Shown one piece after another: positions 8,409-36,800 of a stretch of DNA of 64,000 nt. The translations under genes were made by a program, and so were the position numbers. The DNA comes from Roseicella sp. DB1501. GTDB taxonomy: Bacteria > Pseudomonadota > Alphaproteobacteria > Acetobacterales > Acetobacteraceae. A model generated the notes under the pieces. The model made no database searches. It worked only from the letters and a program-made list of their open reading frames with translations, and was not told the DNA's origin. The stretch spans positions 310,001 through 374,000 of the forward strand of contig NZ_JABFHG010000002.1 in assembly GCF_013112485.1 (NCBI RefSeq). The letters are read 5' to 3'. Each line of letters begins with the position of its first letter. Within the stretch, counting starts at the first letter, position 1.

Positions 8409-8998
8409 CGGGCCCCCGCATGAGCACGCCCGCCGGGCTGCTGGACTTCTGGTTCGGCGCCGAGCTCGAGACCTGGCAGCTCGAGCGCTGGTTCAAGCCG
8501 AATCCGGGTTTCGACGCCGCCTGCCGCGAGCGCTTCGGCACGCTGCTCGCCCCGGCGCGGGAGGGCGCCTTCGACGGCTGGGCGGCGACGCCCGAGGGCG
8601 CGCTCGCCCTCTGCCTGCTGCTCGACCAGTTTCCCCGCAACCTGCATCGCGGCACGCCCGAGGCCTTCGCCGCCGATCCGGCGGCGCGGCGCCTGGCCCG
8701 CGCGGCGGTGCTGCGGGACCGCCACGACCTGGCGCTGCCGCCCACCGCCCGCTGCTTCCTCTATTTGCCCTTCGAGCATGGCGAGGCGATGGCCGACCAG
8801 GATCTCTCGGTCGCGCTGTTCGAGGGGCTGCGCGACGATCCGGTGCATGCCGCGCCCGGCGGCAGCATCGACTATGCCTGGAAGCACCGCGAGGTGATCC
8901 GGCGCTTCGGCCGCTTCCCGCACCGCAACGCCATCCTCGGCCGCGCCAGCACGCCGGAGGAGCAGGCCTACCTGGCCCAGCCGGAGGCCGGATTTTAG
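8405..8998 (+). CDS. DUF924 family protein
   Basis: 197 residues with the DUF924 landmarks LLDFWFG near the start, LLLDQFPRN in the middle, PFEHGE and the late RNAILGR(A/E)STPEE motif. The family is a TPR-like all-helical soluble protein of unknown function, common in alphaproteobacteria. The ATG overlaps the TGA of the FAD oxidase gene (ATGA at 8405-8408), so the two are translationally coupled. The stop codon is followed after two bases by the first copy of the two-hairpin repeat element. Confidence 0.9.
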   Translation: MTGPRMSTPAGLLDFWFGAELETWQLERWFKPNPGFDAACRERFGTLLAPAREGAFDGWAATPEGALALCLLLDQFPRNLHRGTPEAFAADPAARRLARAAVLRDRHDLALPPTARCFLYLPFEHGEAMADQDLSVALFEGLRDDPVHAAPGGSIDYAWKHREVIRRFGRFPHRNAILGRASTPEEQAYLAQPEAGF

Positions 8999-9103
8999 TT
9001 ATCCCCACGACGTCGCTTCGCGCCGTGGTGGGGGCCCCGTGATTCGCTCCGGCCCGAGATCCATCACAGCCTGCCGCGGCGAAGCCGCGGCAGGGCAGCG
9101 GGT
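8999..9103 (+). repeat. Two-hairpin 3' element, copy A
   Basis: Begins immediately after the TAG of the DUF924 gene. Hairpin 1 spans 9003-9033 (CCCCACGACG paired with CGTGGTGGGG, one G-G mismatch). It is followed by a GGGGCCCC block. Hairpin 2 is a perfect 10 bp stem CTGCCGCGGC (9071-9080), loop GAA, GCCGCGGCAG (9084-9093), then GGGCAGCGG. The same layout recurs at 36665-36800 and, on the minus strand, 32284-32161. The rest of the gap to 9291 holds a small inverted repeat CCTTGC-N6-GCAAGG at 9160-9177 and no gene. Confidence 0.8.
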
Positions 9104-9291
9104 GGCGAGCGCAGTAAGCCTGCGCGTCGCAGAGTAGCGAATTGTGCGTTGCAACATTTCCTTGCGGCGCAGCAAGGCCCGATCTAAGCTGTTGGCAAGA
9201 CGAGGAGCAGCACAGCCACGGCCCGCCTTCAGGTCCATGCCGGACCGCGCCGACCGCCGCTGGCGGAGGGGCGCCGGCGCAAGGGGGTCTC

Positions 9292-32160: not shown

Positions 32161-32284
32161 AAGCTCGGAGCGCTTGTTAGCCTCCATTGCCCTTCCGAGG
32201 CTTTGCCTCGGAAAGCTGTGACGTCTCTGGGGCTGCGAGCCTCACCGGGGCCCCCGCGAAGAGGCGCAGCGGCTTCGTGGGGAT
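32161..32284 (-). repeat. Two-hairpin 3' element, copy C
   Basis: Read on the minus strand it starts at once after the TAG of the HMG-CoA lyase gene. Hairpin 1 pairs CCCC-A-CGAAG with CTTCG-C-GGGG, followed by GGGGCCCC. Hairpin 2 is TTCCGAGGC with GCCTCGGAA (plus-strand positions 32193-32201 and 32205-32213) around a three-base loop. Then come GGGCAATGG and a tail TAACAAGCGCTCCGAGC that resembles the tail of copy B. Stem bases differ from copies A and B by matching changes on both sides. Confidence 0.8.
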
Positions 32285-33184
32285 CTAGGCTGCCTGCCGC
32301 GCCGCCGGCACCCGCCGCATGGCGCCCCCCGGGGTCGCGCCCGGCACCGCCGCCGCCAGATCGGCCGCGACCAGCAGCTTCGCCCAGTCCGTGCCGGTCT
32401 CGACGCCCATGCGCCGGAACAGCCAGACCACGTCCTCCATCGCCACATTGCCCGTCGCGCCCGGCGCGAAGGGGCAGCCGCCGATGCCGCCCGAGGCGGC
32501 GTCGAAGATGCGGCAGCCCGCCTCCCAGGCGGCGGTCACATTCGCCACGCCCATGCCGTAGGTGTCATGGCCATGGAAGGCGAAGGGGTTGGGCCAGGTC
32601 TTCAGCGCATGCTCGAAGACCTGCCGCACCTGGTCGGGCGAGGCATTGCCCGTGGTGTCGGCGAGGGCGATCTCCATCTCCGGATCGAGCGCGGCGACGC
32701 GGCCGGTGAAGGCGATCGCCTCCTCTACCGGCACCACGCCCTCGAAGGGGCAGTGGAAGGTGCAGGAGAGATTGAAGCGGATCTTCGTGCCCTTCGGCGT
32801 GTCGCGCACGATGGCGGCGAGATCGGCGAAGCTCTCCTCCCGCGTGCGGTTCAGGTTCGCCTTGTTGTGGCTCTCCGTCACCGACATGAAGAGGCCGAGC
32901 CGGTCGGCGCCGGCATTGATCGCCGCCTCGAAGCCCTTGCGGTTCGGCACCAGCACCGTGCATTCGAGGCCGGCGAGCTGCTTCGCCGCCTGCAGCACCG
33001 CGCCGGTATCGGCCATCTGCGGCACAGCGCGGGGGGAGACGAAGCTGCCCACCTCCATGCGCCGCAGCCCGGCCTCGTAGCTGGCGCGGACCAGCGCGAT
33101 CTTGGTCTCGGTCGGCACGAAGGCGCCGATGGATTGCAGCCCGTCGCGTGGCGCGACCTCGGAGAGTTCCACCTGCCCGGTCAT
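32285..33184 (-). CDS. mvaB: Hydroxymethylglutaryl-CoA lyase
   Basis: 299 residues, HMGL-like TIM barrel. The N-terminal EVAPRDGLQ holds the catalytic Arg and Asp, HGHDTYGMGVAN holds metal ligands, and the signature GGIGGCPFAPGATGN contains the catalytic Cys. It cleaves HMG-CoA to acetyl-CoA and acetoacetate in leucine catabolism; close relatives cleave citramalyl-CoA. The ATG at 33184 overlaps the TGA of the CoA-transferase gene, so the two are coupled. The stop is followed by repeat copy C. Confidence 0.9.
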   Translation of the reverse strand: MTGQVELSEVAPRDGLQSIGAFVPTETKIALVRASYEAGLRRMEVGSFVSPRAVPQMADTGAVLQAAKQLAGLECTVLVPNRKGFEAAINAGADRLGLFMSVTESHNKANLNRTREESFADLAAIVRDTPKGTKIRFNLSCTFHCPFEGVVPVEEAIAFTGRVAALDPEMEIALADTTGNASPDQVRQVFEHALKTWPNPFAFHGHDTYGMGVANVTAAWEAGCRIFDAASGGIGGCPFAPGATGNVAMEDVVWLFRRMGVETGTDWAKLLVAADLAAAVPGATPGGAMRRVPAARQAA

Positions 33185-35072: not shown

Positions 35073-35273
35073 ATGTCCGATTCCACGTCACGTCACGCCA
35101 TCCTGGCCGAGGCCGCGGGGCTGCAGCGCGCCTGGGCCGAGCACCGCGCCGATGTCGAGGAGGCGATCGCCGCCGCCGCCCGGCTGCATTCCAGCTTCGC
35201 CCGTCCGGCCGATCCCGCCATCGAGCCGCTGCCGGCGCAGCGCGCGCCGGAGCCGGTGGAGCACCGGCGGTGA
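35073..35273 (+). CDS. Small AtzG-like (DUF4089-type) amidase partner
   Basis: 66 residues, helical in the first 45 (HAILAEAAGLQRAWAEHRADVEEA), then a Pro-rich end. Size, place and composition match AtzG/DUF4089-type proteins, GatC-like partners encoded just upstream of amidase-signature hydrolases such as AtzE. The GTG of the amidase overlaps its TGA, so both are made together. The likely ribosome binding site AAGGGGG lies rather far upstream (about 14 bases). The family assignment is moderate. Confidence 0.65.
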   Translation: MSDSTSRHAILAEAAGLQRAWAEHRADVEEAIAAAARLHSSFARPADPAIEPLPAQRAPEPVEHRR

Positions 35274-36664
35274 CGGCGCCGCATCTCCTGCCGCTGGCCG
35301 AGGCGGCGGCGCTGATCGCCGCCCGGCGCCTCTCCCCGGTCGAGCTGCTGCAGGACTGCCTGGCGCGCATCGCCGCGCTCGAGCCGCAGTTGCATGCGGT
35401 GATCCGGCTGCTGGCCGAGGACGCCATGGCGGCGGCGCGCGCCGCCGAGGCCGAGATCGCGACGCACGGCCCGCGCACGCCGCTGCACGGCATCCCGGTC
35501 GGCCTCAAGGACATCATCGATCTCGCCGGCCAGCCCACCACCTGCCATTCGAAATTGCAGCTCGACCGGGTGGCGGGGACGGATGCCGCGGTGGTGGCGC
35601 GGCTGCGCGCGGCCGGGGCGGTCTTCCCGGCCAAGCTCGCCACGCATGAGTTCGCCATCGGCGGCCCGGCCTTCGACCTTCCCTTCCCGCCCGCGCGCAA
35701 CCCCTGGAACACGGCGCATCACCCGGGCGGCTCCTCCTCCGGCTCGGGCGCGGCGGTGGCGGCGCGGATGCTGCCGGCGGCGCTCGGCACCGATACCGGC
35801 GGCTCGGTGCGGCATCCGGCGACGCATTGCGGCCTGGTCGGGCTGAAGCCGACCTATGGCCTGGTCTCCCGCCGCGGTGTCTTCCCCCTCTCCTTCACCC
35901 TCGACCATGTCGGGCCGATGACGCGGACGGTGCGGGACAACGCGCTGCTGCTGAACGCCATCGCCGGGCACGATCCCGGGGATCCCGGCAGCGCTGCACG
36001 CCCGGCCGAGGACTACACGCTCGGCCTCAATGACGGCGTCGCCGGGCTGCGGATCGGCTTCGTGCGGCATTTCCACGCCGCGGACGTGCCGGCCTCGCCC
36101 GAGGTGGCGGCGGCGCTCGAGGCCGCGGCGGCGCTGCTCGCCGCCGAGGGAGCGGCGGTGCGGGACGTCACCCTGCCGCCGCTCGGCGAGTTCGCCGCGG
36201 TCAACCGCGCCATCATGCTGCCGGAGGCGGCCTCGGTGCACGAGGCCTGGCTGCGCGAGCGGCCGGGCGACTATGCCGCGCTCACCCGGCGACGGCTGCT
36301 GCCGGGGATGTTCATCTCGGGCGCCGACTACGTGCAGGCGCAGCGGCGGCGGCGGCAGCTCACCGAGGCGGTGCAGGCGGCCTTCGCCGAGGTGGACCTG
36401 CTGCTCTGCGCCAGCTCGATGGATCCGGCCTGCCTGATCGAGGATGCGGCGGAGGTGGAGCGCACCTATCCGCGGCAGGCCCGCACGCCCTTCAACGTCA
36501 CCGGCCATCCGGCGATCTCGGTGATGTGCGGCGTCAGCAAGGCGGCCGGGCTGCCGCTCGGCCTGCAGCTCGTCGGCCCCGCCTTCGGCGAGGCGCTGAT
36601 CCTGCGCGCCGCCGCGGCCTATGAGCGCGCCGCGCCCTGGCGGGAGATGATGCCGCGGCTCTGA
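35270..36664 (+). CDS. Amidase signature family hydrolase
   Basis: 464 residues from GTG 35270 (GTGA overlap with the upstream small gene). The catalytic Ser-cisSer-Lys triad is visible: K80 in VGLKDIIDLAG, cis-Ser S155 in PGGSSSGSG, and nucleophile S179 in GTDTGGSVRHP. It hydrolyses an amide or related bond in the cytoplasm; AtzE, allophanate hydrolase and GatA are relatives. Pairing with an AtzG-like protein points to a 1-carboxybiuret-hydrolase-type enzyme or similar, but this is inference. The stop is followed by repeat copy B. Confidence 0.9.
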   Translation: MTAPHLLPLAEAAALIAARRLSPVELLQDCLARIAALEPQLHAVIRLLAEDAMAAARAAEAEIATHGPRTPLHGIPVGLKDIIDLAGQPTTCHSKLQLDRVAGTDAAVVARLRAAGAVFPAKLATHEFAIGGPAFDLPFPPARNPWNTAHHPGGSSSGSGAAVAARMLPAALGTDTGGSVRHPATHCGLVGLKPTYGLVSRRGVFPLSFTLDHVGPMTRTVRDNALLLNAIAGHDPGDPGSAARPAEDYTLGLNDGVAGLRIGFVRHFHAADVPASPEVAAALEAAAALLAAEGAAVRDVTLPPLGEFAAVNRAIMLPEAASVHEAWLRERPGDYAALTRRRLLPGMFISGADYVQAQRRRRQLTEAVQAAFAEVDLLLCASSMDPACLIEDAAEVERTYPRQARTPFNVTGHPAISVMCGVSKAAGLPLGLQLVGPAFGEALILRAAAAYERAAPWREMMPRL

Positions 36665-36800
36665 TTTCCCCACGACGTCGCTGCGCGACGCCGCGGGGGC
36701 CCCGGTGAGTCGCTTCCGGCCCTGGATGCGCCACAACCTGCCGCGGCGGAGCCGCGGCAGGGCAACGGGAAGCGGCGGTTCTAACGGGCGCTTTCAGCAC
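36665..36800 (+). repeat. Two-hairpin 3' element, copy B
   Basis: Starts directly after the amidase TGA. Hairpin 1 spans 36668-36698: CCCC with GGGG, then CG..CGTCGC-TGC-GCGACG closing the loop. It is followed by GGGGCCCC and a CGGTGAGTCGC stretch. Hairpin 2 is CTGCCGCGGC (36738-36747), loop GGA, GCCGCGGCAG (36751-36760), then GGGCAACGG and a tail TAACGGGCGCTTTCAGC shared with copy C. Confidence 0.8.

Follow-up and report, generated by a model that had tools for sequence, protein, structure and literature searches.

Interspersed palindromic sequences of bacteria are commonly described as located downstream of genes. Among the alphaproteobacteria, the Rhizobium-specific intergenic mosaic elements (RIMEs) are about 108 bp long and contain two palindromes. 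The REP and BIME sequences of the GTAG and CGTC superfamilies are short, palindromic and extragenic, are present in high copy number mostly downstream of genes, and in some cases lie within 15 nt of a stop codon (available portions of PMC3733652 and PMC12306157). A REP of these superfamilies is a palindrome of 20-40 bp that ends on one side in the tetranucleotide GTAG or CGTC. The ends of GTAG REPs often provide the TAG stop codon, and CGTC repeats are stated to be missing from the Acetobacteraceae (PMC3733652). For E. coli, the number of REPs within 15 nt of a stop codon is given in the available part of PMC12306157 as 446 of 4,072 (RepRanger) or 260 of 496 (an earlier study). Stop-adjacent structure in general is already known as well (PMC7518266, in part), and ribosome termination structures (RTS) are a statistical property of unrelated sequences found in 18-66% of genes (Chemla et al. 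2020).

The window, a 64,000-nt stretch of the genome of Roseicella sp. DB1501 (6.0 Mb, 47 contigs), contains three copies (A, B and C) of an interspersed repeat of about 109 bp that is composed of hairpin 1, a variable linker, hairpin 2 and a conserved tail (Table 1). The layout common to the three copies is a TCCCC(A/G)CGA hairpin, GGGGCCCC, a linker, a second hairpin, and GGGCAACGG or a near-identical sequence. The original prediction had placed them, in this shared order, directly behind the stop codons and in the sense direction of three unrelated genes. All three were present where predicted, beginning 3, 2 and 1 nt past the stop codon of the sense gene, and the anchor genes were assigned by Pfam to DUF924 (A), amidase (B) and HMGL-like (C). 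The element consensus consists of hairpin 1 (15 modelled pairs, with the triloop T-N-C), GGGCCCC, a variable linker of ~30 nt, GTCACAG, hairpin 2 (11 pairs, with an RAA loop) and GGGCAACGGGnGGCGAC. The ~20 nt 3' of the tail form a further conserved stretch, which is weaker.

Table 1. Coordinates of the element copies and associated features in the window.
Feature	Position	Strand	Evidence
Stop codon (TAG) of the DUF924 gene 8420-8998, to which copy A is anchored	8996..8998	+	Sequence, gene call, Pfam PF06041
Copy A, model positions 1-109	9002..9109	+	Profile match 9002-9108; 3 nt from stop
Copy A, hairpin 1	9002..9034	+	MFE fold; helix 1 of the counted structure
Copy A, hairpin 2, CCTGCCGCGGC-GAA-GCCGCGGCAGG	9070..9094	+	MFE fold; helix 2 of the counted structure
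Copy B, 2 nt past the TGA (36662-36664) of the amidase gene 35270-36664	36667..36776	+	Profile match, Pfam
Copy B, hairpin 2	36737..36761	+	Sequence, MFE fold
Copy C, 1 nt past the TAG of the HMGL-like gene 32285-33184 (-)	32176..32283	-	Profile match, Pfam
Copy C, hairpin 2; differs from A and B by pair-keeping changes (e.g. C-G to A-U)	32191..32215	-	Sequence, MFE fold, counted structure

We found that the element belongs to a high-copy family. Copy A, used as a DNA query, gave at least 42 matches in the Roseicella sp. DB1501 genome (40 candidates scored), the best non-self match having an E value of 5.2e-34. A covariance model built from 43 copies gave at least 150 matches in the same genome (150 of 150 scored candidates), the weakest at 70.5 bits. 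Because of these genome-wide matches to both the DNA query and the covariance model, the family is not due to chance. The original prediction had anticipated neither the high copy number nor the ~20-nt stretch after the tail, nor that extra hairpin-1 units can separate the stop codon from the element. Such units, ~44 bp each, occur in tandem between the stop and the full element at several loci, among them L034 (1921-2106), L077 (1411-1608), L158 (1413-1608) and L176 (1456-1598).

The distribution of the family is patchy. Among five genomes of the genus, with 65 candidates scored per genome, the element was found in two, the own genome and G003, its closest carrier. Matches were detected in 38 of 397 genomes of the family Acetobacteraceae, representing 7 of 102 genera, and in a class-wide draw of 385 genomes only the own genome matched and none of the 384 others did; 9-10 candidates were scored per genome in these two surveys, so that copy counts are floors and low-copy presence can escape. 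No Rfam 15 family scored above its gathering threshold over the element, either in the window or at 20 loci of other genera, in agreement with the earlier view that no named family fits, and we dropped a known RNA family as a candidate on this basis. The surroundings of copy A gave eight sub-threshold Rfam matches, the best with an E value of 0.22 and 17 bits against a cut-off of 80. A plasmid- or phage-borne repeat was also dropped, since no plasmid or phage match was obtained at blastn sensitivity in a set from which records of the own genome may be absent. The family is not described in the open-licence literature searched. In another genus, a small RNA of the mmgR/suhB type (RF00519, 43.1 bits, barely over threshold) lies at L153 508-593 (-), ~0.9 kb from a copy.

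To describe placement, we called genes with a simple purpose-written hexamer gene caller and placed 123 distinct full copies from the own genome. These are the copies in the stretches fetched, mostly around the best-scoring of the at least 150 matches; 15 partial or weak matches were excluded. The element starts 0-8 nt past a same-strand stop codon in 98 of the 123 copies, with a mode of 3-4 nt, and 120 copies have a gene of their own strand as the nearest upstream neighbor. All three stop codons are used upstream of these 120 sense copies (TAG, 52; TGA, 48; TAA, 20). By manual reading of the placement of the other 25 copies, nine have in front of them one or two extra hairpin-1 units, which begin at the stop, two lie behind a truncated hairpin-1 scar, five lie behind a different ~104-bp repeat that starts at the stop, and nine are left without such an explanation by the gene caller. 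A sample of twenty 20-kb stretches at fixed positions (400 kb) contained the element, full or partial, at four places, all in the sense orientation 4-5 nt from a stop codon. Four places are fewer than the ~10 expected from 150 evenly spread copies; the three copies in the window come on top.

Placement was similar outside the genus. Across five other genera (28 genomes), 59 of 69 copies had a stop codon 0-6 nt upstream that closed at least 60 open codons, compared with 1,081 of 27,200 random positions (4.0%) by the same criterion; the version based on the gene caller gave 55 of 69. This set left out matches that scored below 28 bits, started after model position 6, or ended before position 85. 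Most of the ten exceptions lie behind extra or truncated hairpin-1 units. Random placement with respect to genes or strand, copies in coding regions and a known transposon repeat, which the original prediction had named as contrary outcomes, were absent among the copies examined, a few exceptions aside. Pfam placed the ten upstream genes examined in different families; those for family A DNA polymerase and IMP dehydrogenase are among them. The first 3 nt past the stop are 57% A+T at genes with the element (n = 113) and 19% at genes without it (n = 293).

These properties set the element apart from the described systems in several ways. Unlike a REP or BIME, it is 109 bp long with two fixed hairpins and a conserved tail, and it has the nearly uniform orientation and close spacing given above. 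By eye, neither palindrome of its consensus ends directly in a GTAG or CGTC tag; a CGTC does occur a few bases 5' of hairpin 2 in Roseicella, and it is replaced in many copies from other genera. RTS are defined as stable structures directly past the stop that are selected for insulation of translation; in position and predicted stability, the element would agree with the structural part of this definition. Unlike RTS, the element is one homologous, covarying, dispersed family, and 167 element-free genes of the own genome had no clear peak of stop-adjacent structure. In bacterial group, length and possession of two palindromes the element resembles the RIMEs, a likeness drawn from the description of RIMEs only.

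The arrangement of neighboring genes suggests that the element lies at the ends of transcription units. The next gene was convergent for 76 of the 123 copies compared to 110 of 323 element-free gene ends in a 464-kb sample (p = 2e-7), and, over all loci fetched from the own genome, for 67 of 113 gene ends with the element and 187 of 495 without it. In the other genera, the next gene was convergent in only 30 of 68 cases. Where the next gene was codirectional, the intergenic distance was at least 145 nt in all 46 cases with the element; the median without the element was 34 nt. Classical intrinsic termination is unlikely because the element, whose tail is GGGCAACGGG, has no U-run. Scanning for terminators around copy A gave no site at either hairpin, and the intrinsic terminator was dropped as a candidate on both grounds. 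Within 220 nt, T-run sites were found at 8 of 113 gene ends that carry the element and at 29 of 495 that do not, about equally rarely.

Both hairpins covary. Among the 123 copies, 89.4% of the modelled pairs were standard compared to 85.5% in shuffles, 138 cells were changed on both sides of a pair compared to 55, and the covariation score was 0.130 compared to 0.068. Eleven pairs had a change on both sides, against 7.4 in shuffles, and 15 of 500 shuffles reached 11. Kinship among copies can inflate these measures. We also compared the own genome with G003. In 21 pairs of orthologous copies (2 of 23 were left out because of gaps), there were 14 pair-keeping double changes versus 1.4 expected (maximum of 6 in 500 shuffles), and the substitution level was 0.10 in stems versus 0.19 in unpaired columns. 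In the same 21 pairs, 48 single changes break a stem pair. A GTGA-TCAC linker helix and a helix between linker and tail, seen in single folds, were rejected, since covariation gave them weak support and neither appears in the RNAalifold consensus for the other genera; the initial RNAalifold structure was superseded by the two-hairpin structure.

The two strands of hairpin 1 are not equivalent. In the own genome (n = 123), its antisense form is the more stable one in 98 copies and its sense form in 11; in the other genera (n = 69), the counts are 60 and 2. The difference arises because A-C mismatches in the stems exceed G-U pairs (190 versus 47 and 103 versus 9, respectively, with the first pair excluded). 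The asymmetry of hairpin 2 is small (37 versus 17 of 121 in the own genome; 7 versus 5 of 69 in the other genera). The loop of hairpin 1 is conserved as GC-T-N-C-GC, and the opposite strand reads GC-G-N-A-GC, which we take to be an unusually stable DNA mini-hairpin motif. The antisense asymmetry may mean that the lower stem, which a ribosome would need to open at termination, is weakened in the mRNA, or it may mean that the other strand folds. The latter explanation, in which an antisense RNA or a convergent-gene RNA ends at hairpin 1, or single-stranded DNA forms a hairpin with a GNA triloop, would account for the greater antisense stability, the A-C excess and the conserved loop. We consider it improbable: the A-C excess comes mainly from pairs 6-30, 9-27 and 11-25, and ortholog changes at the remaining positions, pair 1 excluded, are near balance (11 A-C and 9 G-U by manual tally). 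Moreover, the asymmetry is present with a codirectional next gene (76 A-C, 23 G-U) as well as with a convergent one (114 and 24), hairpin 2 hardly shares it, and the tight anchor is the stop codon of the sense gene, not of the convergent gene. The same three observations, antisense stability, A-C excess and a loop that reads G-N-A on the antisense strand, nonetheless weigh against a plain sense-RNA module. The earlier interpretation as a 3'-UTR element, with a putative role in termination, in mRNA stability or as a small-RNA source, stands in part: placement, orientation, the unrelated host genes and the lack of an Rfam family agree with it, and its plain sense-RNA form would not predict the strand preference of hairpin 1.

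Comparison with G003 indicated conserved positions at which the interior sequence often differs more than would be expected. Among 77 orthologous gene ends, both genomes had the element at 23 (one of these a partial match overlapping a gene end), only the own genome at 6, only G003 at 1, and neither at 47; because loci in G003 were mostly fetched for the copies they hold, 23 of 29 retained is an upper figure. Three of the six sites found only in the own genome look like decay or deletion remnants in G003. One convergent gene pair (L041 in the own genome, L188 in G003) accounts, with its two ends, for the single G003-only site and for one of the six own-genome-only sites; here the element is inverted between the species and in each adjoins the stop of the gene to which it is sense. 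The number of hairpin-1 units differs at 7 of the 23 sites that both genomes share. Gene 3' ends are 88-99% identical, yet a paralogous copy in the own genome was as close as or closer than the ortholog in 16 of 21 pairs. The 60 nt past the element were clearly alike (z ≥ 3) in 15 of 21 ortholog pairs, to which the conserved stretch after the tail may contribute. These comparisons fit an exchange of copies, or a rapidly changing linker, at positions that are themselves conserved, and ectopic gene conversion is a candidate route for the exchange of interior sequence. Recent copies are few: a partner with ≥95% identity exists for 2 of 123.

The main rival explanation is a non-autonomous mobile palindromic repeat (REP- or MITE-like) whose machinery targets gene ends in one orientation and which has no function for the host gene, placement being the product of target preference and purifying selection. 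We regard this as possible but on balance unlikely. High copy number, the patchy distribution, the absence of the element at some orthologous stops and the exchange of interior sequence between copies all speak for it. The scarcity of recent copies and the continued pairing of the stems across orthologs speak against it. In addition, searches with PF01797 (Y1 transposase of the IS200/IS605 type) found none in the own genome (G000) or G003, and of the six genomes searched only the element-free G004 was positive. A control search was positive in 5 of 14, and G019 (g16), the one genome searched from the other carrier genera, had none. A REP/RAYT system, which is marked by a REP-associated Y1 transposase in the genome, was dropped for lack of this enzyme in the own genome and G003, which is a further difference from REPs. 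No terminal inverted repeat or target-site duplication, the hallmarks of a MITE, was evident by eye in the consensus or flanks, empty sites being too diverged for base-exact comparison.

A second palindromic repeat, ~104 bp long (TAGACCATGATCC...GATCACGCTCTA) and often CTAG-ended, occurs in the same loci (L061 1615-1718, L018 1895-1997, L142 693-796 and 27 more). It is stop-adjacent at 13 of 30 places, 8 in the sense and 5 in the antisense orientation, and looks like a MITE whose rare target, putatively CTAG, is often a TAG stop codon. It shows that such a target can yield stop adjacency, which speaks for the mobile-repeat explanation. However, it occurs in two orientations and mostly elsewhere (17 of 30 places), whereas the element is orientation-locked, has a variable spacer of 0-8 nt and uses any stop codon. 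Because the second repeat appears in both orientations, the sense lock of the element is not an artefact of the procedure.

The reading we tentatively prefer, giving it nearly an even chance, is that the element is a sense-strand module of the 3' UTR which, by folding as soon as the last ribosome has passed, protects or insulates the mRNA end. Position, orientation, covarying structure, gene arrangement and conserved position were observed; transcription, ribosome contact and protection are what we infer from them. The element would be transcribed together with its upstream gene. Given the footprint size of a terminating ribosome, hairpin 1 would be so near the stop that its lower stem should sit inside the footprint. 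On departure of the last ribosome, hairpins 1 and 2 would close at once, leaving no single-stranded RNA between ribosome and structure. The closed structure would stop 3' exonucleases, slippage or re-initiation, or early loading of Rho or RNase, and would thereby set the 3' end of the mRNA in a genome that seems to have few U-run terminators. Favoring this module are the stop-adjacent sense placement in the full copies, the other genera and the fixed-position sample; stems that covary among copies and between orthologs; and the convergent excess, the long codirectional gaps, the re-anchored L041/L188 pair and the AT-rich sequence past the stop. Weighing it down, besides the strand asymmetry, are the single ortholog changes that break stem pairs, the lack of a clear structure peak at element-free genes, the modest share of convergent next genes in the other genera, and the fact that protection of the mRNA end alone needs no spacing of 0-8 nt.

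Stop-proximal REPs of E. coli suggest another effect, in which translation is down-regulated because the terminating ribosome stalls at a hairpin <16 nt past the stop, and the element is in the same distance class (PMC12306157, in its available portion). We think such a role very unlikely here. It would be costly for the unrelated carrier genes, including the polymerase and dehydrogenase genes, and A-C mismatches in the lower stem of the sense strand would be expected to ease stalling, not increase it.

The 3'-UTR module and the stop-targeting mobile repeat are compatible, and both can hold. A mobile 3'-UTR cassette that spreads itself, homes to stops in one orientation and supplies a ready-made mRNA end is a conceivable, if rather doubtful, combination. 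The position at a given gene would then persist while the copy there is exchanged or acquires a new anchor, which in a convergent pair could even be the opposite gene. An orientation-locked family that keeps within 8 nt of stop codons across several genera would allow a test of whether structure beside the terminating ribosome is selected, and also of how stop-adjacent structure can spread. One genome alone provides at least 150 copies of such a structure, and element-free orthologs from sister species can serve as controls.

Element-free Roseicella orthologs of genes that carry the element (three species) had an unusually stable fold directly past the stop in 8 of 17 comparisons, which derive from six genes, versus 7 of 47 for the orthologs of other genes (p = 0.016). 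Without the two loci that prompted the comparison, the count was 4 of 11 (p = 0.19), and we take this difference as a hint of little weight. The orthologs of the HMGL-like gene in G004 and G001 (L194 and L196) are element-free and have other hairpins directly past the same stop codon.
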